This document shows, one piece after another, positions 5,597 through 64,000 of a stretch of DNA of 64,000 nucleotides (position 1 is the stretch's first letter; the number at the start of each line of letters is the position of its first letter). The translations under genes and the position numbers were made by a program. This stretch comes from Mesodorylaimus sp. YZB2_4 (lineage: Eukaryota; Nematoda; Enoplea; Dorylaimida; Dorylaimidae), in assembly GCA_030248295.1 (NCBI GenBank), contig JASANH010001652.1, positions 248,001 through 312,000 on the forward strand, read 5' to 3'. The notes below the pieces were generated by a model. It did not search any database, was not told the DNA's origin, and saw only the letters and a list, made by a program, of their open reading frames with translations.

Positions 5597-5628
5597 TTTT
5601 TCGAGGGATTTAAAAAACTACGTCAAAA

Positions 5629-12985: not shown

Positions 12986-15900
12986 TCAGTTGATCAATAC
13001 CCTCGCAAATGACGGATTGAGTTTTCTCTGTTCAAGCAATATCATTTCGAATTTGGCCAACTGAGCTGCCATTGCAAATGCAAGTGCGGGGTCGAGTGTG
13101 TTGTCAGAGTTCTGTTTTCGGTAATGCCTCAAGTAGGGATTGTTGATCAGTGTCACCAGGATTAGCCATCGATTTCGGACAATATTTCTGCGCCTGGTCG
13201 AAGAGACATGCTCACACTGACCACTCGCACTAGCCTCTGAAAACGGCGCAAACATGCCTTCCCGAGTTTCTTGATTTGAAAAAGGTATACCCAGTGCTCA
13301 CCTGACACGGGTGGTTCTCCAAAAAACATTACCGAGCCATTCTGCTGATTCTGAAATCTTGCTGCAATAAAAGCTCTGGACTGCTTCTTGAAGAGTGCTT
13401 CTCGAAGTAAGTCGAGAAAAGTTAGAAGAATTGGATTCGTTTGAGTATTTTCCATAACCAACAAAGAAACATAGGCGTTAAAACCTGGAACATTAAAATT
13501 TTTAGAGTTTTAATTCCTATGCGTAAAAAATGCATTCAATGCTAACCGTTGTCCATGCTTTCAAAAGTTCGACTCAGACTGCAAATGTCCAAACGTGGTA
13601 ATGTGCATATGCCAAAAAGCAAGGACTTTAGAATTCGAACCAGGCAAATAAATAAACCTAAACTTGAGTTGATGAAGACCATAAAATATTGAAAGTTCAA
13701 GAATGCCAACCTGGAAGCAAATGATGAGCGATTTTTACGCGCTGAAGGATGCAAAAGGCTTACAAATTCTTGACGGCCAGAATTCGTCTGCCGTGCTCAT
13801 CTTTTTGCAGGAAAAATAGAAATACTACAAGCTTCTGAAGAAGTAAAAATCCATAAATATATGCCAGGATTGGCCTGAAAAGCGGGAAGTTCATTCAAGA
13901 TGTTGATAGAAAATGATCTTTACTGTCCTACCCAAGGTTTTCCAGAGCCCATAGAAATACTCCTTTAAAGTCATTTATAATTATTAAGACTGCTATAACG
14001 ACTCCCAAAATGACACCAGAAAATAAAAGAGCGCCAGTATGGACAATAAATCCTGCAACAAAAATAGCGTATTGCCATAATGTTTTAGGGAATTTGAAAT
14101 TGAGATGTTTGGAACTGGATTTCAGATTTTTAGCTTTCCAGTGGTTAGAAAAGCGTTCGATAATATTTGGCAATTGAAGGAAGTAAGATACGTTCTATTT
14201 TCAGGGACAATAGAAAAATTTCAAAGTGGTTGTCATTAAAATGTGAGCAGAATTTGAATTTCCGCCAAAACGTTTAGGCTGTTGTACGGTTATGGTGGCC
14301 TTCATCGATTACCCCATAATGAATAGGCAAATTGATAACCAACATATTTTGAACCAGCTACCTAAAAAATAATATTCTACATAAAAAAGGAAAAAGGCAA
14401 CACATGTCAGAGCTTACAGCAATATTCCATGGAGCTCTGTTTTTCAGAGAAGGTACATCAATCACCTGTCCTTTATAAAATTGGAAAATATGTCTTCGAT
14501 AATTTCGTAAGGTCAACAGCATGGAAATTATTGTAAAGAATACAGACAGTCCAAACGTGGCGTACAAAGCGTCTAAATGAGATAAGCTGGATTAAATAAT
14601 CAATTATATCCATGACACCCTTACACAATACGCTGCTCCAAACAAGCGCTGGATAAGAGAAATAAGACGACACCATGGACACAACCTCGGTTGCATTTTT
14701 AATATGGGTTATGTTGGCAGCAAGGATCAAGTTCTGGATGGATTGGTCGAAAGCAAACAATATTTCAGCATAAACGGCGATTGACATATTTTGAAAAGCG
14801 GCTAGGATTTTTAGAGCAACCTGAAAAATCCTTTCGTACATTCTCAGTTGTAACGGACTTCATAGCACAAAGATTTCGATAACAGGTGATAATTTGGTTG
14901 TGTTTCGTTTAGCCTTGCAATGCCTGATTTTTAGTGCTGCAGTTCTCCAAATGACACCCCACTGCAGAGGGTGCATCAGACTATTATACAGTTTTCCTTT
15001 TGACTATCCTCGGTCATCTCCAGCAGATAACATAGTCTTCTTCAGAGCCACACGGCTAACAGGAAGAACAACTAGAGTCATTTGAGGAAACCCCTATTTC
15101 ACGCACTATGAGCAGAACTGTGGCGCTGACGGACAACAAAGACGACGAAAGGCTCGGAATATATTTGATTGGGAACTACTCTAATGTCATGGAAGGCCAG
15201 AAAGCTTAGATAACAAACCACTCAAAGACATGCGGCAGCGTCACATTCTTTACCGAATGCGTAAAATACGGTTTCAGTTAGGGTCAGACTACTTACTAAC
15301 CAGACCAATAAAGAAGAAACGGAAGTAGCAGTGAGTATGCTGAGCGGGTATCGATATCCTTCGATCGGGGTGTAAGTATACTTGAGGACCACCCTTGTGA
15401 CTTTTTCGATCCATGTTCCTTTCTTGCCGTAAGATAAGCGATAGGGCACTGGTGATTCGTTCTTGAGGTTGACCAATCGGCGAACATACTCGTATTCGAA
15501 TGTCCTTTGTTTACATGTCTAAACCAACCATAGGGGGTCACGAGAAGATTCACAGCTGTAAGCCAGAAACAAACATGAGATTTATTCTTTTGGTGCAATG
15601 GTAGCCGCTTGAAGATTTGATACGGGAAATAGACGCACAAGTATAACATCCAGGCAATGCATGGAGCGAAGCGAAGTGACATGTAGATTTTCCTTTCCTA
15701 AAAAAGACATTATCATTCAGGACTAGAAACAGAAACGTGACCCCTGGAAAAACTGCTCGCCTGAATGTACAGTGTGGTCTTGTCTGCCGACTAGTCTCTC
15801 CAGCACCCGTCTCCCAAAAAGTCATAAGTAAAGATTGCGATGACCACACCCTCCTTGACAGGCACGTTTCTTGAGCGAGAGTTAACAGGCTGAGGAGGAA

Positions 15901-18102
15901 GCTACAGTATGTGGCCTGAGAGAGAAGGAACAGATCTTTGGCTAGTGCTTAAAGACGTATCTAATCCCTTTTTAGCATCATCATCACTGATTAGTTTTTA
16001 CGAAAGTCAGCGCAGACTGGCCCGCCGAATTTCAATGAGCATAGTTTCCACCTTTTCATCTTTCGTGTCCATCAGAAAACATCATGATAGGGCGTCCATA
16101 GGCTGGGCTATGCCACATGTACATATTGTCGCAGCAAAATATTGTAGGTACCTCACACCACCCCGGGGAAACTGAATAGTATTTACGGTATAGTCTCCTG
16201 CTGTGACCATTACCACTTGGGGGGGGGGGGGCGCCTGGAGTTTTTGGGGGGTGTGCCTTGGGCAGTTAGCTCGGTGAGGAGGAGCCAGGGCGGTATAAGA
16301 GCAGGCCGCCTGGAGAGATCGGGGCTCTCCCTTGCTTGCTTTTACTCGACTCGTTTCCATCTGTGTTCAGAATTTGTGTGGAGCCACCCCCTTGTGTTGT
16401 CCACCCAGAAGCAGAACTGTGGAGCAGGCCAGGCGCCAGCCAGGGACTTCGATTAGCATACCCTCAAGGGTGTTGACAGAAGTCTTTACTGCGCCATCGA
16501 CAGTGGAACTGTTCGCCAGCGTAGGCAGCTGTGACCAGCACGCCTGGCGGTCGGGAGTAATCGATACGCTCCCCTGGTTGGGACGTCAACCTCTTCGGTT
16601 GATGTTTCTAGAGCAGGTATAGTCGCGAGACTTGCCTACCTCCAGTCGGATATTTTTGCTTGGAGACTTCGGTCTCGACTATCTCCCGCCGCCTGGGTGC
16701 GCTGGTTACACAGCTTAGGACCGGGTGCATTCGACCAGCAGCCAGGCTAGTATCTTATTGCACAGAGCAGTTGCAGGCACCTTTGGGAGGCGCGGCAAAC
16801 ACGCCTGAGGGTTTCGTTGAGGAATCGGGGTCTTAGTGATCGATGCTCTGCAGGAATAAGCCTTTATACCATACTTGGGCTATTAAAGACCTTGGACCGC
16901 TCACTTATAAGATCAGCCCGAACCCACCGGCACGAGAGCGAGGAAGATCTGTCGCACACTCGAAAACAACACATTATAACACTCCTATTGATGAGAAGGC
17001 TTCAGAAGCCTACCCATTTGCGGTTTGAATTTGATCTAGGCTTTCAAGATTCGCGATAGCATTGGTGCTGGCTGGGGAAAATACCGAATCGATTTGAGAC
17101 TTACTCGATTCCCATTTTCGCATGGATAATTTGAGAAGACGTAAATAAAAGTCAGGAGCCACACGTAAGCTCCTCCAATAGCATATCCAATAATATGCTC
17201 GGACGTTATTGCGGCAAAAACAGGATAGAATATAGTTGCCAGCAGAAAGCACGTAGTCATGTGCACGAAACCTGAGAATACAGCAGAACAGAAGTCTGCA
17301 ATCTTCTGTGACTCCTTCCAAATCTTACCACTCAAAGCGGGCGATGAATGAGAGTGGGTCAACATTTGACTGTCGCCCAAAAACATTGTGAAAAGTGACC
17401 ATGCAGATATGGTGAAAGCGGCGATAAAAGGCGAGCGATGAGTTCTCTGACAAATAAGGTCCACTGGCCTACAAGGAATGATGACATAAGATAGATTGAC
17501 TTAGGGGGATACGTTAGTGCAACCATTACTCTCGTTTGCCAGCTAGGCACACAGTAAGCGCATGTACTCATCAAGGACAGGACAGGGGATAATTATGCAG
17601 CAGAGCCATAAGAGCATCGTAATGCAGCCTGCAAGGGCACATCTTATCTAATGAGGCAGCGCACTTCAATGACCACATTGATGCTACCAGATCAGGCAAA
17701 AACCAATAGCATACCAAATGACGGACCATTTCGTGCGGTACCCTCTCTTGAACTGTTTGTTGGTTTTCCACTGTTTCAGCAAAACTAAAGCCCCTATTAG
17801 AACAGCCTAAAATAAAAATATGTTTGAAAACCACGTGTCTCTGCGTGAAACCATCAAAAAATTCTGAAGCCTTACCGCTACAATAACTACATATCTTTGG
17901 AAATTATCATGGTCAACGTAGATGCTCTTTTTACAAATGAACCTAAAAAAAGCACCTTCATATTTCAAAGACTGAATAAGAAATTAATCGATAAAAGGTC
18001 TGGGACGATTAGAACATACTGATTTTGCTGTTCATCTACAAATTCGATCACTTGGACAGAAAAAGTTGAAATTATTTTAAGCGCTGAATAAATGACACTC
18101 AT
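12986..18102 (-). CDS. STRA6-like multi-pass retinol/retinoid transporter receptor (copy F, minus strand)
   Basis: Fourteen exons join to about 738 residues: 18102-18020, 17942-17876, 17806-17715, 17468-17329, 17271-17105, 15697-15575, 15518-15297, 14820-14625, 14572-14418, 14194-13932, 13874-13764, 13710-13547, 13484-13302, 13236-12986. Family landmarks are PVDLICQRTHRSPF, FYPVFAA, EGYRYPLSILTATS (where copies B, C and D read YRYPVSMLTATS or a near variant), LDICSLSRTFE and the tail RRRNIVRNRW...LRHYRK. In vertebrates the family takes retinol from plasma retinol-binding protein across the membrane. Most exon sizes equal those of the plus-strand copies, but two are odd: exon 8 is longer (196 bp), and the exons that are 10 and 11 elsewhere are fused into one 263-bp exon whose left boundary is my weakest call. 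Sequons NITH and NATE lie in exon 8. It is the most diverged copy. The largest intron carries an LTR-like repeat with a nested MITE. Confidence 0.88.
16281..16960 (+). mobile_element. LTR-like dispersed repeat, copy 1
   Basis: Closely matches 54636-55660: a TATAAGAGCAGGCCGC promoter-like start, a GATCGGGGCTCTCC block, then GTTGACAGAAGTCTTTACTG and, after an inserted MITE, GGTGCATTCGACCAGCAGCC through to CACGAGAGCGA. The TATA-like box followed by a GC-rich start region suggests a solo long terminal repeat, but no gag/pol remnant or clear TG...CA ends are visible, so the class is uncertain. It lies in an intron of STRA6-like copy F. Confidence 0.6.
16530..16710 (+). mobile_element. TGTAACCAGC MITE nested in LTR-like repeat (reference copy)
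   Basis: The borders are set by comparison with the MITE-free copy of the host repeat at about 55441-55490. The sequence from TGTGACCAGC to GCTGGTTACA is extra here, and CAGC flanks it on both sides (16526-16529 and 16711-16714). The ends are inverted repeats of about 10 bp. The interior has a GACGTCAACC ... GGTTGATGTT hairpin and CTCCAGTCGGA. About 180 bp, non-coding. Confidence 0.85.
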
Positions 18103-21376: not shown

Positions 21377-21427
21377 TCATGCTAGTCCGTGTCTCACGAC
21401 CAGTGCGCCATGACTGTACGCGTCGAT

Positions 21428-23586: not shown

Positions 23587-26500
23587 ATGGAGAACGGACA
23601 AAATGGAAGTGGCGCTGATAAGTAAGCTATTATGAATGATATTGTTAGCATTGGCGAAAGGGCATTGATTTTCAGAGAACATGGTTGCAAAAAATTGGTA
23701 GATCTAAATGAAGAAGCATTTTTTCGATATACTGTCATTCCTGCAGTAAGATTACAAAGCCTTGAACTTGCAAGTCAACGTCAAGTCCAAATTTTTGTAG
23801 GTTTTTCTTATCTTTGCATTGCAATTTCTAAAACAATGGAAAATGAATGGACCAAAGACGCTCTGTCATCCATTTAATGTCATATGGTATCGAATTTTCT
23901 TTTAAATAGGACATAAAATGGAGGCTTATTTTTCGACATCGTACAGTACCCTGGAAGGGGCCTTTCTAAATAGGCTATTTGAATAAATGTATACCAATAC
24001 GTGGGCCCCAGCAGAAACCTTGCAAATTGTCTCTGGGCGCCAGTTGAACAGCTCCACAAAACTTTTATCCTTCCGTAGTTCCATTCTAATTTGATAAATA
24101 TGTTCACGACAAAGTCTGGAGTCGATCCCAATACCTATACAATGTCTCCGTAGCCAGACGGTGGTGTCGACGCACCATACCAATAGTGCCGTAAGAGTCG
24201 AAGGGTCCGGGGTCACCAATCGATCTACGCCGCCTGCAATGCACCATCACACATATGCAAACTTTAACATCCCCAATGGACTGCAGCCCCAATCTCATGT
24301 CGTGTCATACATTATTCATAGCCACACATTGTACAGACAGAGTGTGTGTGACTCGAGGGCTGAGGAACACATACTGTATTTGACAATCATTTTACCTAGG
24401 CGGGAGTCGAACCCTCTCTTGTAAGTGCGCACCTGGCGTGAGCGCATCTGCCCTAAGCCGCTAAGCCACGACCTGGGCAAATTTGCACTTGTATGAGCTT
24501 AAGTTTACCTGTACTGCGGCAAAGAACTCTAAAGCAACTCAAAAAATTTTTTTTTGATGCAATAAGCAACAAACTAGTAATTTATGCAATGTCCTAGGCC
24601 GGTGGATCTCCTTGGTCAACGCCGACATCGTTTTCCATACGTAGCGGCATTCAATGTTTCAGCTTGGTCAATTTTAGATGCGATCACAGGCAATAGCTCG
24701 TTGCATTTGACGACCGACATCAAGCCGCTTAAAAGTTAGCCTTAATATTTTTTTCGCAGAGAAACTTTTGCACGTTCGCTTTGTAAATTGCAGGTCTTTT
24801 GAAACTGGCCACAATGATGATCCTAGCCGTTATATTTTATCCCATTTTTGCAGCAATTTCTTCTGATGACGTTATCGGGTACGGACTAGGCATGGCTTAT
24901 ATTTGGATGCTGACTGTGATCTATTTCATCGCGAAATTGCCATGCGGAGATACGAGCCTGGTTAGTTTTGAATGGCCGCTGATAGACGTACCTACACATG
25001 TGTGATAGATAAAACTACAGTTCAGACTTCAGACTGAGGCTTAATTTTAATCAGCTGGAATTAAACCTTGGCACCTTTAGATCACAAGTTTAGGGGCCGT
25101 TCAAAAAAGATGTCGTACGCAAATCAGCAATTTTCGACCCCCCTCTCCCTATCGTATTTTGGCGTTTTGCGCCTGACCCCCTTTTCGGCGTCGTACAAGC
25201 CAATACCCGGCCCTCCCGCAAAACTGCAAAGGGGAGACCAAAGACACATTTAAAAAGAAAAATTTCATGAGTCGCACCGGCGCACTTCACCCCGCCGCTG
25301 CTCATGTCCATACATCTCGTACGCCTCCGTATGTTCCCATCCTCATATCGGTGTTCATGCCAACAATCTTTATCGGAAGATTATTATTATTATACTCATT
25401 ATGATACTTATTAATTTGATTAACTTGATTTGATTTCTTTGATTTGATTTTGATTTGAACTTTTACCTTTCTGCTTTAAAAAGTTTTTTGGGCTGAAGCC
25501 CGTTTTTGCCTATAACTGGCCATCAGTCAAACCTTCTAAGCGAGGCTCTGCGGGGACCAGCACACACAGCAGCTTCCCTCTGCGTGACTCCACCAGGAGG
25601 ACTCACACAGTAACCTAGCGATGCTTCGAGTAGAGAGACGGAAGCCAAACGAGGAGACAGTCTAAGCTGCTGGACAATGGCGGGCGGGCTACCTCTAGGT
25701 TACTGGGTGAGTAACCCACGGCTTGGCGCGAAAAGTCAGCGAGGGTTTATGATTCGCAAACCGACCTCCATCACCAGGGATTGAACCCAGGCCAGCCACT
25801 GGCTACTGACCAATATGGAGAGACAAATGCCTGGCCGCGCTGCACCAACGCGGCCCCTTCCTATAACAAACTGAGTCTGGCCAATCCGCATTCTTATAAC
25901 CAAAAATATCATGAATAGGTAATTCAAAAGTGGCGGACCTGTGCTCGGCTGACTGTAATAGTCTCTGGCAGAAGAGTTCGGAAGGAAGGAAAAACGCTGC
26001 AATACCTAGCGTAAAAACGACGTCGTTTTCCCTTTGACCCCCCTCTGTCGTTTTTCTCATTTTAGTGCTGACCCCTTCCCCCCCCCCCCCCTGGCGTACG
26101 ACGCCGTATTTGAAAGGCCCCTTACGTGTTTGATTTAATTCTTCCTAACTTCTAGTGAACATTTTTTTGCTGGAAAGTCGAAAAATATCCAGCGATTAGC
26201 TTATATTCTCAGAATGACAAAGGCCTACCAGAAGGGTCAGACGGAGTGCAAAAAACTGGAAATGCACCTGTGTGTGACTAGAAAATTAGAAAGGCTCATC
26301 TTTCGAAACATGTTTTTTAGACTGTGTAAATTGTAACAGCGAAGTCCAAAACTACAAATGAACAGTACATAAAATTTACACCCCTGAAACAATTTCCGCC
26401 ATTATTCTCCTGTTACAGAATGTGGCAAGTTATACCACAACAATTGATGCAATTTATGGCGTCATCGAATTTCTACCCTGCCTGTTGTGGATGTTGTACC

Positions 26501-29432
26501 TTTGCATATATTTCCCAACCCGTCTCTTCAATCGAGTTAGAAAAACAGAGCGTCGAATATTGGAGGTGCCGTCCATTTCTGGCTTTAGTGTTCTCAAAGA
26601 AGATCTATGCACATACTTTTCAGACTCGTAACAAGCATGCATTCGAGCACGAGTATGTCCGCCGTCTGATTAATTTTAGGGATCAGCCCAGAGTAGCTTA
26701 CAGAGAATCTTGTGGCACAAAAGGTGGTTTTTTGGACAAAATCACAAGGTTTATTTTCAAGAAGATTTACGCGCCTATCAAAGGCTTCCGATATCCAGTC
26801 AGTATGCTGACTGCAACTTCCGTTTCCTTGCTTCTCGTCTGGTCTGTAAGTAAATTACTGCCGAAGTCTCGGCTGCGCCCGAATGACATTTTTCAGGTTG
26901 CTATCGATATTTTAAACAGTTATCATTTTATTATTTCTCTCACTCGATCGAGTATGCTTGTTTTTTTTGGATCAAAAGTGAGAGAATTTGTGGCCAATAA
27001 TACAAGGGCAGTTGAGAAGATTATAACATCGCCTGCTTATGATGAAGCCATTAAATGGTGGAAAGGCTTGGAATGTAGGTGTTCGTCGAATGCACTCTGA
27101 CAGATGAATTAAATATAAGCACAGATATGCGCACGTTATTAGAAAAACATGCATATTTATGTACTTGAGCCTTCTAGAACGGCATGCATATTTAGAAATA
27201 CAGTACACGTGATACATGTATATGCGGATAACATGAACGGTACTACGCTAATTTCATATTGCTATTGTGTATGAACAATATATGAACCATACGATCTATG
27301 ATATAATAGCCCTGCACTATAGATGGTATGGTTAAAAGCACTAAACGTGTGCAAATCAAGTATTAAAGGTACATCAATTTAGTATTAAGGCCCATTAATG
27401 GCACTGATTAAAAAATTTAAGTCGCTCTGTTCTGACTCGCGCATGTACGCCTTATGCTACGATATGCCAGCATATCCCCCTTCTATCAATATTTTATCTT
27501 TTTTAGATGCCATGTACATCTCGTTTATCATTGCATTTTTGCTGACTGTCCTTTCCATGTCGCTGGTACTGAGAAATTATCGAAACCACATTTTGCAATA
27601 TTACAAAGGAGTCGTCGTAGATTTGCCTCGTTCAAAGCATAAAACTCCTCGAAATATTGTGGTAAGTAGTCTTGCATTGAATGGAATATCTGAAGAAACT
27701 GATGTACATAAATCTGACCAAAGAAACAGCTCTCAAGGGTCAGTTAGTGCCAAACATTATTACGTAACTCAACACTCTTCATTACTGTACTGTACAGTAC
27801 AGTAAATCGTACAAAGTTTTGAATGAGTGAGTGAAAGCCAGGATTCCACGTCGAAACGTTATGTTTGAGTGAGTCGCATCTGGAGACTAATAATGCAGAT
27901 GTGGTGGGGGCGAGATACTTGCCAAACCCAACTTCGGTTATTTCAAACCCTGACGATGATGTGCAAATGAAGAGCATGTGCCCCTCCAAATTAGGTCCCT
28001 CAGTATCACACTCGGACAGGACTGCGTTTCAGGTATCTGGCTCGAAATATATTGGCTATCAATTTGGATACGCCTTTTGGGGTATGTCGAGTTTTGCTTG
28101 CCCACAGTATATACAGTATATTTCCGAATCTCGATTTCTACTGTAGGTTTTGTGATTCAAGCCCTATTTCTATTGGTAATTAGTGCAATTGTCATCCTTA
28201 TAGCAGTCTCCATCATCGTTTTCAAAAACTATCAGCTATTTATTGATATAATCCTTTGGGTTGGGTAAGTGACTCATCATGAGTCATCTATCACAATATC
28301 GTGCCTGTTTTGTTTCAGACCTTTATTTGGCTACATGTATGGTATTATGATAACTCAGCAATTATTGGTACATTTTCTCTTTCTGCAAAAAGATGGACAC
28401 GGAAAACGAGTATTAGCCATAAGTCGCCTGTAAGGGCTTGCGTTGCGTCGCTGGACATTTTTTTGCTGAAGTGGAGCCATGACGTACTTGTGCGAAAGCG
28501 TTTCTCACTGGAGGCAGGAGGGATTGATAAATTAATATAGAAAGCATTTCAGACATATATAGCGTGTCCAGCAAGAACTGACCAGAGCATTTCAGTTACT
28601 GGCTCCAAAGATTGTGATAATATAGCGGTTTTTTTAAATCCCTAATTTCAGGTTCGCTTTCTTCAACTTTCAATACGTTATGGTTTTCCTCAACTCTGCC
28701 ATTGGTCTAGCATCTTGCTTATTACGAGTTCTAAAGGGGGCTTTGATCGGAGCTTTCACCGTGTCCCGACTAGACATTAGTTGTATGAGCCGGACTTTTG
28801 AAGGAAAAGATAGTGGTAAGAATATTCCTAAGAAGTACCTAGGTCAAACCAAATCCGGAACTTTTTTCGTCGGCTAGGATTTAACGCCTACGTTAGCTTG
28901 TTGGAATTCGAAAATATGCAGACAAATCCAATTCTAGTGATTTTTGTCGAATTATTGAAAGAAGCTGTTCAGAAAGCAAAGAAATCTAATGACAAGGGGA
29001 TTATGTATATTAAAGCAGAAAACGATGTGGTTATCTCCACGGCTACAGATGGTATGCTCTATGCCTGCTCTCTGGCGATTACCATTGCACGATTTCCAGT
29101 TGTTCTTGTTAGATAATATTTCCGATTGCGTAGCAATTCGACACCGGAAAAACGTTGTCAGAAATCGATGGCGGGTGGCCATGACAATGGTCAGCAGCAC
29201 GTACCTGCGGTATTATAGGAAAAAGGAGTTGGGACGTTTGAGTGGGGAAGGAGCATTCGTCGCTGCAGATCAGCTGGCCAATTTTGATTTGGTATTAGCC
29301 CGTCGTAGACGCACTTTGGCAGATATTGCATTAGAAGGCGATGCTAACACAACTGATGTTCAGGTTAAATCGCTTAAAGACATTGTCCTGGAAGGTAGCA
29401 AACAAAAAACTCAAGACCTATACAGACTCTAG
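23587..29432 (+). CDS. STRA6-like multi-pass retinol/retinoid transporter receptor (copy A)
   Basis: Fifteen exons give 710 residues with no stop or frameshift: 23587-23621, 23676-23745, 23801-23886, 24598-24734, 24794-24960, 26419-26565, 26624-26845, 26897-27074, 27507-27661, 28033-28081, 28147-28264, 28319-28429, 28652-28815, 28878-29051, 29113-29432. Start MENGQNGSG. Landmarks are PVDLLGQRRHRFPYVAAFN, FYPIFAAISSDDVIGYGLG, FRYPVSMLTATS, LLRVLKGAL...LDISCMSRTFE and the tail RKNVVRNRWRVAMT...LRYYRKKEL, which align with the last third of vertebrate STRA6 (LLRVLLSAL...MDLSLL and RW...TLL...FRK). Nine or more membrane segments are evident. The exon 8 loop carries sequon NNT. Exon 6 has 24 extra bases at its 5' end compared with all sister copies, and its donor (GTGCCG) is weak. 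Intron 4 holds a SINE; intron 5 holds a TIR element with a nested SINE. Confidence 0.92.
24295..24478 (-). repeat. tRNA-derived SINE, family 1, fullest copy
   Basis: Read on the minus strand it begins with a tRNA-like head: box-A-like GTCGTGGCTTAGCGGC, then an arm GCAGATGCGCTCACGCCAGG, then box-B GGGTTCGACTCC. A shared body follows (AAAATGATTGTCAAATACAG, then CAGCCCTCGAGTC). Copies at 38528-38660, 8512-8625 and a head fragment at 55945-56012 share this order. It lies in intron 4 of STRA6-like copy A, antisense to the gene. Confidence 0.75.
25091..26123. mobile_element. DNA transposon relic with GGGGCCGTTC-type inverted ends and a nested SINE
   Basis: The left end TAGGGGCCGTTCAAAAAAGA...GTCGTACGC mirrors the right end GCGTACGACGCCGTATTTGA..GGCCCCTTA, giving inverted termini of about 28 bp. 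Ends of this GGGGCCGTTCAAAAA type are common in invertebrate non-autonomous elements. The interior has no transposase frame and contains a SINE (25486-25865). A C-run lies near the right end (about 26079-26091). It lies in intron 5 of copy A. Confidence 0.75.
25486..25865 (-). repeat. tRNA-derived SINE, family 2
   Basis: On the minus strand the head reads GCGTTGGTGCAGCGCGGCCA (box-A-like) and GGGTTCAATCCCTGGTGATG (box-B-like), followed by a body shared with 52105-52512 over most of its length and ending in GGGCTTCAGCCC. It is inserted inside the TIR element at 25091-26123, so it is younger than that element. Confidence 0.75.
27782..27805. repeat. 24-bp perfect TACTGTAC palindrome
   Basis: The arm TTACTGTACTGT is followed directly by its reverse complement. 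It lies in intron 9 of STRA6-like copy A. Short TACAGTA/TACTGTA words recur widely in the non-coding parts of the window. Confidence 0.7.
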
Positions 29433-44100: not shown

Positions 44101-47100
44101 AAAGAAAGTCGCATACTCGAAGTGAGTCTCATCATTATCAGTCTAACCAATATTTTCAATATGTTTGCTGGTTTTAGACTCGGAACAAGTATGGTTTCGA
44201 ATACGAATATGTTCGCCGTCTGATTAATCTCAAGGACGAACCGAGAGCGTGCTATAAAGAATCCTACGGAAAGAGGGGTAGTTTGTTGGAGAAGATTACA
44301 AAATTTATTTTGAAGAAGATTTACGCGCCCATAAAAGGCTATCGTTACCCAATCAGCATGCTAACCGCCACTTCCGTTTCCATGCTGCTTGTCTGGTTTG
44401 TAAGCAAAACTTTTATCGCCAAATGTTTTGCAAGGATCGCAGATCTTGTTTTTAGGCCGCAGTCAGAATAGTCCAATTTTATCATTTTATTCTTCTAAAA
44501 TCTGAGTGGCTCATCACTTTCTTATTTGGAGAAAAAGCCGTTGAAGTTATGAGGAACCATACAGCTGCGATAGAAGTAATAGAAGAGTCGCCAATTTATG
44601 TAAAGTTATTAGAATGGTACAGAGGTGTCGAATGTAAGTAGCGTGTTTGGGTTTGCTTATTCACACAACCTAATTTTTAGGCACTATGAGTACCCATTTA
44701 ATTCCCTTTAGAAAAGATTTTGCTTGCATTTTTCTAGTAACAACTCTGGTTTTATGAGGTACCTGTTCTCTGCGACGGCATATGGCATAACCCACCCAAG
44801 GACATTCTTCCATGACTTTTTAAATGAATAAGATTGGGAAAAATGGTGGAGAACTATGCATATTGAGTTAATGATCCATATATCCCGCTGCTGTAGGGAG
44901 CGAAATAATTTATTCTGATGTATAACTTGTTTTCTTTGAGAATATACAGGCCCTTCGCGTGCCGCATGTACATTCCCATAGACAACGGATAGTACAGTAG
45001 AAGCTGCATACTAAAATCGGTTTGGATTCTATTACCATCCATTTCGAATCCTAACTTAGACCTATTGAAAAAATAGCCCTGGATATTTTGAGTACGGTAT
45101 ATATTTCTTACATGCTACAGTATAGACAGTGTCTTCTACTATTTACGGGTCATCTACTGTATATGTGTTAAGTACACAGTGTTAAGATAACTTCAGGTTA
45201 TTGGCAAATGAAGCTATAAGAAATGCAAATTTGCATCATTTAATACAGTAGGTACACATAATATACAGTATATATTACATATTGTTACAGTTTGATATAT
45301 CGGTATAATTAGGCGTCAAATGTGTTTCAAGATTTTAGTATATCGTTAGAATATCCCGACGTTGTGTTTTCCTTTTTAGATGCCTTCTACCTCTCGTTAG
45401 CAATCGCATTTTTATTTACTCTGATCACCATGTTGCTGATGCTAAGGAATTATCGGAAACATATTCTTCAGTTCTACAGGGGCGTCGTCGTAGATGTACC
45501 TCGTTTCAAGCACAAGGCTCCTCGATCTATCGTGGTAAGTTTGCCCCTTTCCCTAAAGTGGTAAAATATCAGGTTTGTTCACGAGTATCTTCTCTTGATA
45601 AAAATGACAAATCTGTATCAACCTTTAAAAACTGCTGTCCTTTCCCAGGTTTCCGGTTCGAAATATGTCGGTTATCAATTGAGCTATACTGTTTGGGGTA
45701 AGTCGACTTCCTTTTTTTTAACAAGTCAGTATAAAATCGTTTTTTTAGGCTTTGTCATTCAAGCCTTCTTCTTCTTAGCGCTCTGCATAGTTGTCATCTT
45801 AATCGCTACGGCGGTATTTATTTTCAAGAATAACAAATTGTTTTTCTCAATTCTTCTGTGGGTGGGGTAAGTGTTTTTGCTTTTCCATGGTAAGCAGACT
45901 CTGGGTATGCCACTAGACGCTTTCTCTTCCTGGCAATCTGGGATGCTGTGCCCTCCCACTCGGAGTCAATTAAGAAACTTTTTTTAGACCTCTGATTGGC
46001 TATGTCTATGGTATTATGATAATTCAGCAATTGGTAATCCATTTCGTGTTCCTGCAAAAAAATGAACGCGGAAAGCGAGTTCTGGCAATTCGCTACCTGT
46101 AAGTTATTTTAAAAATCTATTTGTCATCTTGGCTACGAACTGCTGTGTGCTTCAAAAACAAAACTTGTAAAGCCAAAGTACCCGTATGATCCAGCATTCT
46201 GTGTATGTTGTATGACCAGCGGTTTGATTGTATCATACTTCTTACTTTGCAGATTTGGCTTTTTCAATTTCCAATATATTATGGTTTTTCTCAACGCTGC
46301 CGTTGGTCTGGTCTCGTGTTTACTGCGGTTGATAATAGCTACGGTGATTGGTCTTATCACCTTGTCCCGGCTGGACATGAGTTGTATGAGCCGAACTTTT
46401 GAAACAAAAGATAGTGGTACGGATGGTTATTATCCTGTTAGCCGTGCTTTGTCATAGGGACATGCTAGAGGACAATACTGTAGGCAAACCTGACAATGTC
46501 CAGATTTAGTCGGATACTATAACATCGTTATAAAGCTTCCAACACTGCAGACCGTTTCCTAGGAAATCAATCATTACCAAAAACACGGCTAACAGAAGAC
46601 AGCTAGCCAAATAAGCTCCTGCTTCATACTCTTGTACAACTAGACTATTTTAGGATTCTCCGCCTACGTCAACTTGTTGGAATTCGAAAATGTCCAAACC
46701 AATCCAATTTTAGTCGTCTTTGCGGATTTATTGCAAAAATATGCTTTCGGAGCTAAAGTAGATATGCAGCCAATTGAAGAACACACTGGCAAGGAAAGCG
46801 ATGCCGTTCCGTCAGTGTCAGTTACTTCTTCAGATGGTATGTCTTTTGATTTGCCAATGTCGCCCTGTAGCTGCCATACTGTATGTTCGATTTCCGCAGC
46901 TGGGTGCGGTCTGTCTCTATTCAGAATTAGCATAACTAATAACATGACTGGGCTGCAAGATATTCACAGCTTTTTCGACATTGTTGAGCATTACACCTGC
47001 GTGTACCTTCGATGAGAACAGTCAGTAGGAGTACATGTGCTTATGTACAGGATTACGTATTGCAGATTTCAGAGCGCAGTTCCTTCCTTTCCGATAAATG

Positions 47101-47359
47101 TTTCTGCTGTTTAGCTCCTCACCAACGCAAAATTCGCAATCTCTGGTGGATGGCCGTAACTTTAATCCGTAATCCATTTCTGCGATATTACAGGAAGAAG
47201 GAACTACAAAGTCTGGGCGAGGAGCGTGCCGCTGTCGTAGCGGAACTGTGGACCAATTTTGACCTCGCAGTAGCACGCCGAAAGAAAATTTTGGCTAAAA
47301 GGAATTTAAAAGAAACAAATGAAGAGAAAAAACTGCAGAAATACAATAATATTGTGTGA
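41192..47359 (+). CDS. STRA6-like multi-pass retinol/retinoid transporter receptor (copy C)
   Basis: Fifteen exons: 41192-41232, 41288-41357, 41416-41501, 43375-43511, 43569-43753, 43999-44121, 44178-44399, 44456-44633, 45380-45534, 45649-45697, 45749-45866, 45988-46098, 46253-46416, 46654-46836, 47115-47359, giving 688 residues. The last exon could instead start at 47073 (14 more residues, same frame); both acceptors are plausible. Landmarks are SLVDLDDVAFFRYVAIPA, PVDLVSQRRHRFPYVAAFN, KGYRYPISMLTATS, LDMSCMSRTFETKD and RKIRNLWWMAVTLI...LRYYRKKEL. Exon 5 is extended at its 3' end by 18 bp against the usual 167. The exon 8 loop keeps a sequon (NHT). Exons 6-7 are very close to copy B (for example RTRNKYGFEYEYVRRL in both), which suggests recent duplication or gene conversion. 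Intron 3 (1.9 kb) carries a Tc1/mariner relic. Confidence 0.9.
42630..43333 (-). mobile_element. Tc1/mariner-type transposon relic
   Basis: On the minus strand (42975 to about 42634) there is an N-terminal transposase segment with a helix-turn-helix: LKKQGLSDKQLVKT, SRSTIFSIIKKSK, then RGRKRGTSPRIDRKIVLKVK, the bipartite HTH and GRPR-like motif of Tc1/mariner transposases. Upstream, near 43296-43333, GGGTGGGACTAAAATAATCG looks like its terminal inverted repeat next to a TA. The catalytic DDE part and the other end are missing or decayed. It sits in intron 3 of STRA6-like copy C. Confidence 0.8.
44920..44995. repeat. Fold-back repeat, copy 2
   Basis: CTTGTTTTCTTTGAGAATAT pairs imperfectly with ATGTACATTCCCATAGACAA across a short loop. 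The whole unit, with its TATAAC flank, matches 11466-11545. In intron 8 of STRA6-like copy C. Confidence 0.7.
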
Positions 47360-48992: not shown

Positions 48993-51900
48993 ATGGATGA
49001 TGAGTAAATGGACGCTTTGGACATAAGTAGGAGGAACAGACTTTGATTTGCTCTTCAGAACCTCAATTTGTAAAAGACCTGTTGAATTGGACGAGGTGAC
49101 CTTCTTTCGGTTTGTGACCATACCTGCTGTAAATATTGGCTCCCCAAAATCATGAACGGCCTCATGTCGGACATTTTAGGTTCTACTAATTGTCGCTTTG
49201 CAAGTCTTGCAACAATGGAGAAAAAGGCGGCAAAGATTCTGTGGAAGCATTGCTGTCATATGGTGGGTACAATGTGGGATGTAGAAGTACCTAAGAAGCT
49301 GTAATCTTGCAGAGAATAAGCATCAATCTCTACTGGATCATTGAAGTGGTATTAGCACATGCATTTGAGGCATACTTTTTAGGCCAGTCGACCTCCTCGG
49401 CCAGCGTCGTAATCGCTTCCCTTACGTAGCTGCATTTAATGTAGCTAGCTGGTCCATCTTACAAGCAATCACGGGTGAAAGTCCGCTGAAATTCGAAACT
49501 TACATCGCACCCATCTCAAGTAAGTCAGAATATTTTGAGATGAAGCCAATAACTTGAACGTGTATGATTCAGGTCTTATGAAACTTTGCACCTGCATTGT
49601 TCTGGCAATAATCTTTTATCCCTTATTTGCCGCAATATCATCAAATCACGTAATTGGATATGGATTAGGCGCTGCATATATTTGGATGCTGACCGTGGTC
49701 TACATTTTGGCAAACCACCCATGCGGCGATAACACACTGGTTAGTGTATTAGGTGTGCTTGGCCTGTGAAGAAGGTGGTGTGATCACTTTAGTTCGTGAT
49801 TGCAACCCTCGTGCCTGGCAAGCCGGGCAAGGGGAGAATAATCGACCTTCCCTTGTCTGTGAAATGTCAACCCCTCGGGTTGATGTATCAGCCGAAAGGT
49901 GCAGTCGCAAGAAATGCCTTCCTCCAGTCGGAGTTTCTGCCATATTCTCACCTACTCCTGCCAGGCTCGAAAACACTTTCTTTAAAAAACACCCTGTTGT
50001 TACGAGGAACTGACGTTATTCCAGCATGATTTCCTTCCTGATGATATAATTGAAATTTATAAAGCATTTAGCTCTTAAAATTTGACTTCTCTTGTTTTCC
50101 TAAAACAGAAATCACGAATCACAAATCGCAAATACAAACCCAACAAACATTCTGATTTAAATATGTTGCTTTCGCAAAACATCTGGGAAAACTATCTTTA
50201 TTAAAATAAAATGCATCCGACTGATATGCATCAACAACATTTTTTCAGGGCGCAGCGACCTACGAGGCCATAGAATTTTTACCTTGTCTTTTATGGATGT
50301 TATATTTATGTATTTATTTCCCACTGCGAATTATTTCTCGCATTCGGAAAAAAGATCAGGATCGAAATGAGGCAAGCATTGAATAATCAGCGTACCAATT
50401 TTTTATGACAAGTCCACAACTTTAGGTGCGAAATAAACATACTTTCGAACGCAATTATGTTTATCGACTACTCCACCACAGCGACCAGCCTCGAGTAGTT
50501 CATCGAGAATCCTACGGTAAGAAAGGAAGTATCTTGGAGAAAACCACGAAATTGATATTCAAAAAAGTGTATGCACCGATCGAGGGGTACAGATACCCTG
50601 TGAGCATGCTGACTGCTTCTTCCGTCTCGATGCTGCTAATCTGGTCGGTAAGTCTCAGGAAAGCCTTCAGTTCAGTATATTCATCAGATTACTCGTTGAT
50701 TATGTGGCGATATAAAAATATTTTCAGGCCGCCGTGAGTATCATAAGACTATACTATGTCATGGCTGCTTTGGGTCATGCCACGGTGTCTTCTTTGTTTG
50801 GGCCATCAGTGAAAGAAGTAGTAGTCAACAACACAAATGTGAAAGAAACCATTCAAGCATCGCCCTTCTTCCAGACAGCTGAGGCGATGTGGACAGGAAT
50901 GGAATGTAGGTTTCTGGGAAAGGTTTTTTACTCACTCGCGAATCTTTGTATTTATATTGATTAATTTTTTTCCCTTTGGAGTCACTTTGGCATTCTGTTA
51001 CAAAGTGAGATTCGATGCAACTCTCTCTCTCACACTCTTTTCAGATGCCATGTACATATCGTTCGGGCTCGCCTTTCTGCTGACTGTCATTTCTATGCTA
51101 CTGGTGTTAAGAAATTATCGAAATCACATTCTCCAATATTACAAAGGCCAAGTTGTGGACTTACCGCGTGTGAATCACAACTCACCTCGAAATATTGTGG
51201 TAAGCTGCGGAAACATGCTGTTTCGTTCAGCTGTGTCAATTAGCTCAACGAAACAGCACCAGCCACTAGCCACCATAGTCGGAGAACTACTGTCTTGCAG
51301 GAGAATTTAAGCAACCAAACGGGTCCTACGACAGAAATGGGGTTTTTATGGCAAAACCTCAATCTAAAACTGTATTTTATCCGTTGGAGCAAGAAGCTTC
51401 ATGAAACTGAACTACTGCAAGCTGACTGCTTTTGGTCAGTAGGGCCAGGCCCGACAATTCGACCCAAATCCAAACCGAAAATTTTCAAGTCAAACCCAAT
51501 CCGTTCGCTAGTGAACCCAAACCCAAACCATAAAAACCCATATTTTTTGAAAAAATTGACTAAAACCCCAAACCACCTTTGTTCGGTGAAGTAGGTATAT
51601 CATCAGTATCACGCACATTTTTGTGAAAATGCTATCATTCTTTGCTAATCGACCTGAGGGAAAGCAATCTTGTTCGCACAGAGGCTTTACTCGAAAGTCT
51701 TCCTCCAGAGAAAAGCAGTGAAAACAGTGGAAGAGTCTTCCCTGGCGTCCCGAGGGCTCCGAGTAGCACATTTTGACTGTGCCATAACTCTAAAGTTTGC
51801 CTTACGATGAACACATTTTTGAGCAGTTGATTGAGTCGTGCCCGCTCGCATCTTCATCTACCTTCAGAAAGATCACCAGGGATACCCCAGGCAACTTATC

Positions 51901-53921
51901 TAGCAGACGATTGAAACTGGCATTAGCTAATCTGACTCCACCTCCAAATTCGGTTTTTGGACTCCTCCAAAGCACAACCCGAGACCTGAGAAGTATCCTG
52001 CTCACAGAGATCAATATCATCTGCTAACAGACGATTTCTCACTTCCGTCATAGTCATACTCATGTCGAATTAGAGTAGTTAGCTAGGGGCACTTTTTTTT
52101 CAAAATTTTTGTTGGCCGAAGCCCGTTTTCGCCCATAGCCGGCCAGCAGTCATAAGCAGGGCTCTGCTGGTCCGGCACACACAGCAGCGACCCTCTGCGT
52201 GTCTCCAATAGGAGCACTTCCACGCGAGGACATCCTGGACAGGACACCGAGTTCCTCGGACGAAGGCGGGCTTTTAACCGTATGTTGGACAGCCGAAACT
52301 GTCTCCTCGTTTGGCTTCCGTCTCTCCACTCGGAGCACCTCGGCGGTATACCGGGTGAGTCATCCACGCCTGGCGTGCAAGGTCAGCGAGGATTTATGGT
52401 TCGCAAACCGACTTCCATCACCGGGGATCGAACCCGGGACGAGTCCAGCCACTCGCTCCCGAGCAATACGGAGAGACGGATGCCGAACCGCTGCACCACC
52501 GCGGCCGCGCTAGGGGCACTAGGTACGTTTTTAGAGCACCAGGATCTGTCGATTCGAAACCAGCGGACATCATATCGCATTGGCTTCAAAACGCTGTGCC
52601 GATCAACCACATACTCATGCTGACGATAAAGGCTGACCCAAAGTGGGAAAGTGGACCATTCAGGTTCAACCCGACCTGATCCGGTGTCTACTGGGGATAT
52701 TTGAAGGTTTATACTGTACGATTTCTAGCCAGTCTGGCGCATACATTATCTTATTCCTACGAAAGTATCTATCGCTTCCCGACAATTACACGTGGATTTT
52801 CTGATTTTCAGGTTGCTGGCTCAAAATACGTTGGCTACCAATTTGCGTACGCATTTTGGGGTAATAATTTGCCATCTTCTCTTTTTCTCAACCCCGAACG
52901 AAAAATTTAGGATTTGTAATCCAAGCCGCAATTCTATTGATGGTCAGTGCAATTCTTATATTTTTGGTGGTGTTCGTATTCATTCTGAAAAACTACCAAT
53001 TATTTATTAAAGTCATTCTGTGGATAGGGTGAATATAACGCGCCTATCTGACATGGTTGAACCCGCAGGGGATTTGAAGGACTTTTATGTTCAGGCCACT
53101 GTTTGCATACATGTACGGCATCATGGTCACTCAACAAGTAATGGTGCATTTCCTTTTCTTGCAAAAAGATGAACACGGGAAACGCATCTTGGCTATTAGC
53201 TGCTTGTGAGTCCTATTGGGATTATCAGTAAGGCCAAGTGCTGAACCGAAGAATTATGCTTTTTTTTCTTAGGCTTGCCTTCCTTAATTTCCAATATTTT
53301 ATGGTATTCATCAACTCAGCCATCGGTCTAATCTCGTGCCTTCTACGTGTTATCAAGGCGGCCGTAATCGGATCTTTTACTATTGGTCGCTTGGATATGA
53401 GTTGTATGAGCCGGACATTTGAGAAGATGGATAGCGGTAAAATCCAGTCACACGTTTAGATTAAAACAACCAAAAAAATTATTGCAGGTTTTAACGCCTA
53501 CATTAGTCTACTGGAGTTTGAGAACGTGCAGACAAACCCGATTCTTGTGACTTTTGTTCTTCTATTAAAGGAGGAGGCAATCAATAGAAAGCTGCTGTAC
53601 AATCAAGACGCCTTTATACTGACCAGGCGGAACGGAAAGCAAGGTGTCATACAGGAGGCAACACTGACGCACTAATACCATAATCCCTTTTTCTTATCAG
53701 ATACCACTCGCTCCGGCAGCTTGGAAGTAGATCGACGCAAAAACGTGATCCGCAATCGTTGGCGAGTGGCCATGACTTTGGTCAGCAGCTCCTATCTCAG
53801 GCACTATAGAAAGAAAGAGCTTGCTAGTTGCGGCACTGAATCTGCTTTCACTGCGGCAGAACAATTGACCAAGTTTGATTTGGTAGTCGCTTCGCACCGA
53901 AACGATGAAGCATCGTCTTAG
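48993..53921 (+). CDS. STRA6-like multi-pass retinol/retinoid transporter receptor (copy D)
   Basis: Fifteen exons give 654 residues: 48993-49003, 49059-49128, 49180-49262, 49383-49519, 49573-49739, 50249-50371, 50426-50647, 50728-50905, 51045-51199, 52812-52860, 52911-53028, 53095-53205, 53273-53436, 53488-53643, 53701-53921. The first coding exon is only ATG plus 8 bases (MDD-E), the shortest of the set; it is chosen because phase 2 and spacing match the sisters. Landmarks are FFRFVTIPA, PVDLLGQRRNRFPYVAAFN, EGYRYPVSMLTASS, LDMSCMSRTFEKMD and RKNVIRNRWRVAMT...LRHYRKKEL. Intron 6 begins with the classic GC donor (GAG|GCAAGC), and only this choice gives the family's 123-bp exon 6. The exon 8 sequon is NNT. 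The tail is the shortest of the family. Intron 9 holds a SINE and intron 5 a MITE remnant. Confidence 0.9.
49795..49985 (+). repeat. Diverged TGTAACCAGC MITE in intron 5 of copy D
   Basis: TGTCAACCCCTCGGGTTGATG is the family's internal hairpin, followed by CTTCCTCCAGTCGGAGTTTC. The order matches 16530-16710 but the ends are too diverged to fix. Confidence 0.6.
52105..52512 (-). repeat. tRNA-derived SINE, family 2, long copy
   Basis: On the minus strand the head has GCGGTGGTGCAGCGGTTCGG (box A) and CCCGGGTTCGATCCCCGGTG (box B), then a body of about 350 bp shared with 25486-25865, ending at CGGGCTTCGGCC. The tRNA-like part is better preserved here than in the other copies. It lies in intron 9 of STRA6-like copy D, antisense to the gene. 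Confidence 0.8.
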
Positions 53922-56492: not shown

Positions 56493-56498
56493 TTTATT
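56493..56498 (-). terminator. Poly(A) signal overlapping the GPCR stop codon
   Basis: AATAAA on the minus strand; the TAA stop of the receptor (56494-56496) lies inside the hexamer. If used, the 3' UTR is only about 10-30 nt. Confidence 0.55.
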
Positions 56499-57615: not shown

Positions 57616-57889
57616 ACGCACTCTGGATGAGAAGTGAAAGTAACTGGGTGTAAAATATCTAAACACTCCTATTAACTGCAACTGCTCTAACCGCCGAAAA
57701 AATTGTACAGTCTGTATGTAGATCAGATAAATCATTTAACAAGCACTGTAGCTACAGAAGAGCCTGGTGAAGGCTTCACGCACTCTACTATCAGTTAAGG
57801 AAAAAGAGTTTCAAAATTATGTAAGCTCGCGACACACCCCTAACTGTGGAGACATGTGTGCAACCCCCTGGAAACACGTACATGGGCGG

Positions 57890-60385: not shown

Positions 60386-63300
60386 ATGAAATATCCAAAT
60401 TTCGAAACTACTACCATTTGGTTTCAGTAAGACCAAATCCTCAGATTCGTTGACCGAAACAAAAAATTTCCTTGCAGGAAACCTGAATGCGCTAGAACTC
60501 TGGCGCTAAATGAAAAAGATTTTTTCCGATTCGTTACTATTCCAGCTGTAAGATTTTTTCGACTCGTTTTATTTTCAAGAAATTACGAGATATTTGATTC
60601 CAGGTTCTTCTCATTGTGATTTTGCAATTGATAAAGCAATGGAAAACAAAAGGAAAAAGTGGATTTTTCACGACTCTTTCTGTTATATGGTAAGCATCAT
60701 TAAAATTGAAAAAGTTGAAAACTTATTTGAAAAAGGCTTGAACCCTTTCAAAAGGATATGACAGAGTAGATCGGGGAAACGACCGAAAAAGGGTGTAAAA
60801 CAGATCAATCTTCTCGCAATTTAGTTGCTGGCGCCAGTTATCAGCATTCATTGATCTTAGATCGAGCTCGAGGATAGTTTCAAGGTCTGAGCTCTAAACG
60901 CGGGAAAAAACGGGGAGCACAGGAAAACTCCAAAGGACAGGCCAAAATCAAAACAGCAGGCAGTTAAAAGTTTTGACAGAGACGATTGAGAAAGGGATTG
61001 GCTTAGGCTCGCCTTATGTGTTCTCATTGTGTTATCAAGTGCTCATCCCGTGTTTGGTCCTGTGGTAAAAGGAGAACATGAGCACGAATCGCTGACTATC
61101 TAGATCTTCATAACGTGAATGTATGCCACAGGCAGATCCTATCCAATACTGTGTGTACATACTGCAGACTGCTACAGGAGGTGCTACCCGAAGACCGGCG
61201 GCATCTTTTTCCTGTTTTCAATCCGAGTACCCAAAATGGCGCTTTTTAGAAGCTGTTGTGCAGCTCACCAATGAATCAGACTTGAATTTGTTGATACTTC
61301 CCACGGTCAACTACGACCACCTTATCATAGAATCGGCAAGTTTTGCTTCGCCTAGGCTAAAAAAAAGGAAACCAGTCAGACCTCAAACCGCTCGTTCGAG
61401 CACAAGTGCCTCCTTTCAAAGAATAATGATAATTATACAGACAGCTTGCTGCTACAGTAATATGACATACTTTCTAAAGTGTGACAAGATAAGGAAGCAG
61501 TGAAAACTGGAGGAACAGTCCACTGAGTGGTGGACTGGTCCTCCAGTTAAATCGAAAATTGGGTAAAGTCGAAGCGCGAGCCAACAGACAACGACTCGAT
61601 GTCAGTAAAATCGACAGGGTGTTCAACATTTTTGCTCCAGATCGGCTGGAACAGGAAAATTTTTTCAAATCAAAAGCCAAAACCAAACCAAGAATCCAAA
61701 AACTTCTCCCCTAACATTTAAGTAGATGTAGAATGTTTGAGAACTGTGGCCACCTGTTTAGTGTCAAATGTCCCTCTTTCTCTTTGGTGCTCCCTCTTTT
61801 CCAAGAGGGCAATCAAAAATCTAAATCCTGGAACAAGCATATTCCTGGAACATTCGACTGCTAGCAAAGGTGTACAGCAGTACTGCACACGTGCATCGAA
61901 AGTCACAAAGCATTCTGCCGTATACTTAGTGCAGCTAAAATGTATCTCAGTTTTATCCGATCTAATTCTGTGGCATCCAGCGGTCATCGTCCACATATTT
62001 AGGCCAGTCGACCTCGTCGGCCAACGTCATCATCGTCTTCCATATGTGGCAGCCTTCAACATAGCCACCTGGTCGCTTCTGGAAGAAATTACGGCCCAAG
62101 ACCCCCTAAAGACTGACGCCACCTTTCATATTAAAAGTCTACACAGCATGGACTGTCAGCAAATTCAGATTATAATGCCTGCTTTTCAGGTCTTTCAAAA
62201 CTTGTTACCTTGCCCGTGCTGGGCGTTATATTTTACCCACTGTTCGCTGCTGTTTCTTCGGATGATGTGGCTGGATTTGGATTGGGCGCGGCTTACACGT
62301 GGATGCTGACTTTGGCATATATTATTAAAAACTCACCGTGCGAGGATCGGACAATGGTAAGCTGCCATTACCTTTCGCTAACTATAATTCTCGCAACCTT
62401 ACTCGTCGCTGATCCGACTGTCAGCCGGGAAACAGTTTGGAATTTTGGGAGGTAGAAATCCGGCGGACGGGGGGCCGATTTAATTTTATTAATGAAACAT
62501 GGCCGCACTGTTTTGTGTGTTTGAGCAAACAACCAGCCGTACCTGCCTGTGACTTCAAGCTGCGCTTTTTGCTTTTCCGCCAAGTTCGTCCAGTCATCTG
62601 ACCGCGAATGTACAGTGTGGTTATCTCTACAGTACATGTGTAATTTGGGTAAACATACTGTATATGTAGAAGAAGAGTAGATAAAGTCACAGAATCATTA
62701 TCTGGAGCACTAGATGACGAAGCCGCAAGGCAAAACTGTCTCGATTTTTGCCCTAATCAATCATCTAGTCCCGCTCCGTGAAGTAATGATCTGTGTACAC
62801 AATGTGACCATCATGCACTATGATTCTAGGGGTCAGCAACCTGCGACACCATTCAGTTCGTCCCTTGCCTTTTGTGGATGATATATCTATGTATATATTT
62901 CCCGACTCGATTAATTAATCGCATAACGAAAAAGGAAGTTGATCGAAAGACAGTAAGACCTTGCGACCATGGATGATGCTAGAATGCAGGATCTATAGTC
63001 ACTGTCCTACCTAATTTTAGGATCACAGTGACACTTTTGAGCACAACTATGTACGCCGTCTTCTAAAGGGAGAGTCCCCGCTGGTCTACACGCACTCGTA
63101 CGGAAGCAAGGGCAGTTTGCTGGAAAAGGCAACCCGGTTGATATTGAAGAACGTCTATTTCCCAATCAAAGGATATAAATACCCAGTCAGCATGCTGACT
63201 GCCACTTCCGTTTCCATGCTCCTTATCTGGTCGGTAAGTTGATCGTAGGTTGAAGAAAGGAAACAAAAATGGAAGTAGACATGCTTGGAATCATGCGTGT

Positions 63301-64000
63301 CGATAGATTGTGTATAGTCTTAGAGGAATTTAGGAAATAAGAACACAATTCCTCCTGCTACTTAGAGTACAGCATAAACTCCTTGCGAAAATTGGAGATA
63401 AAGCCTGTGAGGGGCCTATTAAATTTAAGTTGAGTGCTTCAAAATTGAAATATCCTGAATTTCGGAACATGGACGCGGGGCAACCGTTGGCTGCCCCGCG
63501 GTCAGTGGATCGATCCCGTCAGACACGGTGGGGTAATCGTCTCATTCAGGGGTACGTCACAAGACTGAACAATATAATTGCGTAGTGATCGTATGAACCG
63601 TTTCCACGAATGCACACGCGAGTAGGCACTAAAACAATGTATGTGAATTCATCCAACTGTGATTCAAGGTTTATAAATTTGTCTTTTTTAGGTATCAGTG
63701 GACATAAAATACTTTTACGGAAAGCTTATTACTCACACAAGAGAACATGATTTACAAGAGTTATTAACAAACAATGAAACACGGAATGCGAAACTTCCCA
63801 GCACTGATTTTGCCAATGGACTCGAATGTAAACTTGAAAATTTATATCACTAGCTTTTCTAACGATAAGAGATAGTTGGCTGTGTCACGCATGCCAGCTT
63901 CACATCAGCAGGACTTACACACCAGTCACTACGTTCGAATTAGCTTCCCAGTGATCTTGTTTGAATGCCGTTAGCTGACCAGCGTTAAAAAGTTTGGCAT
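60386..64000 (+). CDS. STRA6-like multi-pass retinol/retinoid transporter receptor (copy E), cut by the window end
   Basis: Eight exons are visible: 60386-60426 (start tentative, MKYPNFETT), 60478-60547, 60604-60689, 62003-62136, 62190-62356, 62830-62952, 63021-63233, 63692-63827. The rest lies beyond 64000. Landmarks are LNEKDFFRFVTIPA, PVDLVGQRHHRLPYVAAFN, GVIFYPLFAAVSSDDV, FVPCLLWMIYLCIYFP and KGYKYPVSMLTATS. Exons 4 and 7 are shorter than in the sisters by 3 and 9 bp, in frame. The exon 8 loop is short (136 bp) yet still has a sequon (NET). The first coding exon is inferred only from an ATG, phase 2 and a GTAAGA donor, and may be wrong. By sequence it is further from copies A-C than they are from each other. 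An A-rich exon 8 and long introns 3-7 are otherwise normal. Confidence 0.85.

Follow-up and report, generated by a model that had tools for sequence, protein, structure and literature searches.

A tandem array of STRA6-family genes and its wider gene family in a nematode genome

The nematode genome studied here carries 20 or 21 genes of the STRA6 type, six of which form an array in a single stretch of 64,000 nucleotides (the window). The family is probably the product of a radiation, within nematodes, of STRA6-type uptake proteins that work with several carriers or ligands. The window corresponds to C34:248001-312000 of a 145.1-Mb genome in 1067 contigs, and positions are given in window coordinates unless a contig is named.

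Organization of the array and gene models

Cross-comparison of the six regions together with splice-aware modelling resolves six related genes, one inverted (copy A) and five in tandem (copies B-F), which is the arrangement proposed in the preliminary description. Each window copy was rebuilt one exon at a time, and these models replace the first-pass drafts. Copies A-E (five of five) each comprise 15 exons with matching splice sites and a frame that is open from ATG to stop, again as previously described. Copy A, a STRA6-like gene (PF14752) on the minus strand (12986..18102), encodes 715 residues in exons 18102-18020, 17942-17852, 17806-17715, 17468-17329, 17271-17105, 15697-15575, 15518-15297, 14820-14625, 14572-14418, 14361-14313, 14052-13932, 13874-13764, 13710-13547, 13484-13302 and 13236-12986. 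The remaining copies lie on the plus strand. Copy B (23587..29432; 710 residues) has exons 23587-23621, 23676-23745, 23801-23886, 24598-24734, 24794-24960, 26419-26565, 26624-26845, 26897-27074, 27507-27661, 28033-28081, 28147-28264, 28319-28429, 28652-28815, 28878-29051 and 29113-29432. Those of copy C (30188..39548; 693 residues) are 30188-30243, 30297-30366, 30418-30503, 31389-31525, 31581-31750, 33724-33846, 33903-34124, 34184-34358, 35756-35910, 37331-37391, 37440-37557, 37607-37717, 37908-38071, 38818-38991 and 39289-39548. Copy D (41192..47359; 702 residues) is built from 41192-41232, 41288-41357, 41416-41501, 43375-43511, 43569-43753, 43999-44121, 44178-44399, 44456-44633, 45380-45534, 45649-45697, 45749-45866, 45988-46098, 46253-46416, 46654-46836 and 47073-47359, and copy E (48993..53921; 654 residues) from 48993-49003, 49059-49128, 49180-49262, 49383-49519, 49573-49739, 50249-50371, 50426-50647, 50728-50905, 51045-51199, 52812-52860, 52911-53028, 53095-53205, 53273-53436, 53488-53643 and 53701-53921.

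The modelled introns of A-E are all GT-AG, with the sole exception of intron 6 of copy E (GC-AG, 50372-50425), and four exons are constant in length across the five copies (exon 7, 222 nt; exon 9, 155 nt; exon 12, 111 nt; exon 13, 164 nt). As far as sequence can show, the 15-exon plan with five complete open genes is correct. Confidence in the models is lowest at the start codons, since exon 1 is short and little conserved; the weakest start is that of copy A at 18102, where exon 1 itself is uncertain. Copy F is cut by the end of the window (first part 60386..64000, plus strand) and its final exon ends approximately 3.0 kb beyond, on the same contig. Exons 1-7 of this copy are 60386-60426, 60478-60547, 60604-60689, 62003-62136, 62190-62356, 62830-62952 and 63021-63233. 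A candidate exon 8 at 63692-63827 is based on splice sites and phase, its similarity score (34) not reaching the value of 36 that marks the 95% point for shuffled sequence, and exon 11, outside the window, is a clearer match than this weak candidate.

The preliminary description also stated that its copy F lacks one intron. The rebuilt models do not bear this out, and it is uncertain which copy was meant. The reading frame of copy A is open across exons 4 and 5, but 17328-17272 shows strong splice ends (17272..17328 on the minus strand; 57 nt, GTAAGA...TTCTCAG). This stretch is stop-free and a multiple of three in length, and it sits where B-F have introns of 53-59 nt; reading it through would add 19 residues that are absent from the models of B-F. 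With this in-frame intron, the loss of an intron from copy A is not supported; the stretch is a possible cause of the earlier reading.

False exons were present in the first-pass drafts, some of those in copies B and E being probable pieces of a mobile element. Related repeat pieces, probably from a mobile element, were located by cross-comparison in introns of these two copies (25554-25841 and 52160-52526) and account for the false exons there; the stops in the drafts of copy C and of the window part of copy F vanished after rebuilding. A 26-nt minisatellite with several identical units lies between C and D (39783-40223). These two copies are 83% identical over 300 nt spanning an intron (33715-34014 versus 43990-44289), and the dS of their exon 7 is 0.21, compared with 0.56-2.28 in the other computable C-D exons. 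The tract around exon 7 is possibly a gene-conversion tract.

Several other genes are found in the window. A long single frame at 56494-57735 (minus strand), inside the array, encodes a rhodopsin-type or Srsx-like GPCR. Two further long single frames, at 20345-21376 (plus strand; also inside the array) and 10599-11399 (plus strand), appear by eye to be multi-pass and receptor-like and match no Pfam family at E 0.1. At 5614-6552 (plus strand) there is an open frame for MAT1, the CDK-activating kinase assembly factor (PF06391, 2.5e-43), with a C-terminal anchor, and at 8882-9205 (minus strand) the start of an FAD-dependent oxidoreductase (PF01266, 9e-9), perhaps of the D-amino-acid oxidase type.

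Family membership and extent in the genome

All five complete proteins match PF14752 (RBP_receptor; best 6.8e-79), passing the curated Pfam cut-off of 25 bits, and match no other Pfam family at E 0.01. Copy C scores 258.9 bits (1.5e-76) and covers positions 8-605 of the 605 in the profile. The draft models of A and D score 204.6 and 193.1 bits, respectively, and the window part of copy F 95.6 bits (4e-27; draft model). When a profile of A-E was compared with the PDB, the only match was zebrafish STRA6 (5sy1), which aligned colinearly over residues 42-628 of 670 (1.3e-43); one draft protein alone matched the same entry at 8.3e-17. The preliminary assignment to the STRA6 family, which had relied on the C-terminal third of the proteins, is upheld as to the family, while the match extends beyond that third to the full length. 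By these comparisons the six genes are shown to belong to the STRA6/RBPR2 membrane-protein family, the five complete ones over their whole length.

The nematode proteins thus share their Pfam family, a colinear alignment and the C-terminal segment, including R-W and R-K, with vertebrate STRA6. We take this segment to be the calmodulin-binding site of STRA6, and its counterpart aligns in the nematode copies. Identity to zebrafish STRA6 is 18-22% for the window copies and 18-28% for the whole family (aligned pieces, draft models). Proteins of the PF14752 family have nine membrane helices and one intramembrane helix; many hydrophobic segments are present in each of the five proteins, with a helix count that hydropathy does not separate.

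The array is part of a larger family. A Pfam search of the genome gave 30 exon matches (all 66 candidates scored), of which 21, on 12 contigs, are the signature exon of the family; six of these 21 loci are those of the window. The divergent gene on contig C181 as query gave 40 matches (43 of 43 candidates scored), returning the same 21 loci and none new. With 62 of 142 candidates scored, a whole-protein query gave at least 71 matches and added only one contig, C390, the end of which repeats the start of gene 598a on contig C598; C390 was excluded from both the locus count and the tree. Contigs C598 and C941 carry genes that are 98% identical, and the family therefore numbers 20 or 21 genes. 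The tandem expansion noted at the outset is accordingly larger than was claimed. Some drafts outside the window contain stops (one in 126a and three in 126b), which may be modelling faults. On contig C3, the STRA6-like gene has a transthyretin-like match (C3:1746541-1746702, minus strand) approximately 0.5 kb beyond its last modelled exon.

A tree of 22 rows was built from draft models with zebrafish STRA6 as a long-branched outgroup. Copies B-F form one clade, copy A joins the C598 and C941 genes, and five more lineages fall outside both; 15 of the 19 inner branches are well supported. The window copies are 39-63% identical (draft models), and this divergence, together with the grouping of A with the C598 genes and not with B-F, indicates that the array is not recent. 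Judged from these relationships, the array is old and the family broad.

The invertebrate origin of the DNA, as first described, is confirmed, and the host is a nematode. The genome yields 133 matches of 137 candidates for cuticle collagens (PF01484) and 27 of 40 for transthyretin-like proteins (PF01060), two families that we take to mark nematodes. Collagens are present on five of the 12 contigs with a signature exon (C3, C8, C16, C68 and C414; C34, which holds the window, is without), so that the collagens and the STRA6-type loci belong to one genome. A genome search for the arthropod cuticle family PF00379, run without a positive control, gave no match. A tardigrade host was considered and rejected: a CAHS sequence used as query found nothing, which is not decisive by itself, and the nematode families did give matches.

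Divergence of the putative docking exon

Exon 8, the putative carrier-docking segment by alignment to zebrafish STRA6, lies at 14820-14625 (minus strand) in copy A and, on the plus strand, at 26897..27074 in B, 34184-34358 in C, 44456-44633 in D and 50728-50905 in E. Among exons 2-15 it has the lowest identity in all ten pairs of A-E (mean 28%, compared with 43-76% elsewhere); exon 1, with 3-27 residues, is lower in some pairs but is too short to compare. Exon 8 aligns with the stretch of zebrafish STRA6 that contains FLLAGFN, presumably the counterpart of mammalian YLLAGFG (Y336, G340 and G342), of which zebrafish would thus keep one residue in three. Its assignment as the docking segment is by position because the alignment is weak there, as expected of a divergent stretch. 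Y336, G340 and G342 are given in a passage of PMC9992173 as the RBP4-contact residues of mammalian STRA6 that are needed for binding. The contact motif was sought in exon 8 of A-E by alignment to zebrafish STRA6 and is absent in all five, so that the nematode copies differ from vertebrate STRA6 in lacking conserved RBP4-contact residues. Uptake from RBP4 itself is therefore unlikely.

An N-glycosylation sequon lies within exon 8 of all five window copies and in the same stretch of the drafts C68, 13a, 598a, 598b, 598c and C941 (nine further models were not delimitable there). The sequon fits an extracellular loop, although some 60 residues can hold one by chance.

For 598a and 598b, where eight of the 15 exons were compared, dN/dS is 0.60 in exon 8 and 0.22 in the seven other exons pooled (Fisher P 0.031, on rounded counts); exon 9 of this pair gives 1.02, from two silent and eight replacing changes. 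In three window pairs the exon 8 ratio is 0.42, 0.45 and 0.60, none above 1, these and the other window-pair ratios being rough because dS is near saturation. The ratio is 0.07-0.28 in 24 of the 27 computable comparisons of other exons in these pairs; the exceptions all concern C and D (exon 3, 0.64; exon 11, 0.41; exon 14, 0.38), and 12 of the 42 exon comparisons were not computable. The raised exon 8 ratio can be relaxed constraint, and positive selection is not claimed. The divergence of exon 8 fits a specialised uptake of several carriers.

Candidate carriers, mechanism and alternative explanations

The genome also encodes possible partners. Eight lipocalin-profile matches were found. For six of them (L009, L011-L014 and L016) the frame is uninterrupted and 194-236 codons long; contigs C32, C15 and C63 have two each, and these six are candidate carriers. 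The comparison with the PDB covered one lipocalin, from C15: it carries a hydrophobic leader and is most similar to ApoD (2.8e-26), and none of the 19 PDB entries that it matches at E 1e-6 is named as RBP4. By eye, the second C15 frame and one C32 frame resemble this ApoD-like protein, and a further lipocalin-profile match on contig C10 looks FABP-like. There are six matches to carotenoid oxygenase (PF03055; five strong; contigs C89, C57, C455, C108, C20 and C30) and two to the LRAT domain (PF04970), a family that also spans enzymes other than LRAT. Genome searches for the nematode FAR and NPA carriers, run without a positive control, gave no match from two candidates and from none, respectively. 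FAR and NPA are secreted lipid carriers and not receptors, unlike STRA6-type proteins, and we know of no receptor for them. According to a passage in PMC4613501, retinol and fatty acids are ligands of nematode FARs, and carriers of this sort are secreted by parasitic species.

By homology, each STRA6-type protein would be a multi-pass protein of the plasma membrane. A secreted carrier would dock on its outer side and give up a small hydrophobic molecule, whether a retinoid, another lipid or a carotenoid product, which the protein would let through into the cell membrane. A retinoid ligand is suggested by the genomic context. Calmodulin, with which a STRA6 complex is named in a passage of PMC5133064, might bind the C-terminal segment on the inner side, as it does in STRA6. 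The kept core and C-terminal segment combined with a divergent docking exon suggest the same transport core with different partners, and the simplest account of an old, open-frame, divergent array is probably that its members differ in the carrier or ligand that they recognise or in the tissue that they serve. A more specific version, which we put forward only tentatively, is a multi-carrier uptake system in which about twenty receptors share one transport core and, through rapid change of one glycosylated docking exon, are each matched to their own secreted carrier, be it an ApoD-like lipocalin or another protein.

Other explanations must be weighed against a radiation of uptake proteins. The genes could encode canonical vitamin A receptors that do the same job as vertebrate STRA6 with an RBP4-like lipocalin. 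In favour of this are the full-length family match and a genome that also encodes carotenoid oxygenases and lipocalins bearing hydrophobic leaders. We consider this unlikely, as exon 8 does not conserve the residues on which RBP4 binding by mammalian STRA6 depends, the one lipocalin compared is closer to ApoD with RBP4 unnamed among its matches, and a single carrier would not call for about 20 divergent receptors. It is very improbable that most of the additional copies represent assembly haplotypes or duplicates in decay: the near-identity of the C598 and C941 genes, the repeated start of 598a on C390 and the stops in 126a and 126b (if not modelling faults) speak for it, but the window copies are 39-63% identical, and five of them retain uninterrupted 15-exon frames.

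Co-option of the family for a different function, for instance in sensing lipid signals, in the traffic of cuticle or yolk lipids or in chemosensation, with no carrier-dependent uptake of vitamin A, is rather unlikely but deserves consideration. The family is large, both dispersed and tandem, and divided into several clades, and the array encloses a GPCR gene as well as a second receptor-like single frame. Nematode lipocalins are moreover described in a passage of PMC12848578 as acting in the extracellular matrix; STRA6 is mentioned there only as the RBP4 receptor. Against co-option stands the retention of the STRA6 core and C-terminal segment along nearly the full length.

The proposed radiation of STRA6-type uptake proteins is set against a literature in which one review says that invertebrates lack STRA6, RBP and LRAT (PMC5133064). 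STRA6-named genes appear in passages on Aplysia (PMC8195618), oyster (PMC9892467) and a dung beetle transcriptome (PMC9979532), where they are named in tables or lists and the passages contain no array or family analysis. No report of a STRA6-type family in nematodes was found in the literature searched, although unpublished annotations may exist. Vertebrates have one STRA6, according to the preliminary description, compared with the 20 or 21 genes of this nematode. Vertebrate RBPR2, or STRA6-like, is a protein of the same kind, presented in PMC9992173 as a second RBP4 receptor with its own proposed docking residues, S-Y-L.

A nematode with 20 or 21 STRA6-family genes runs counter to the invertebrate absence stated in that review (PMC5133064). 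The family supplies concrete candidate receptors for the release of lipids from the secreted carriers of nematodes, and the divergence seen in a single putative docking exon makes the matching of receptor and carrier testable. If the multi-carrier reading is true, these proteins would be the missing receptors for the extracellular lipid carriers of worms.
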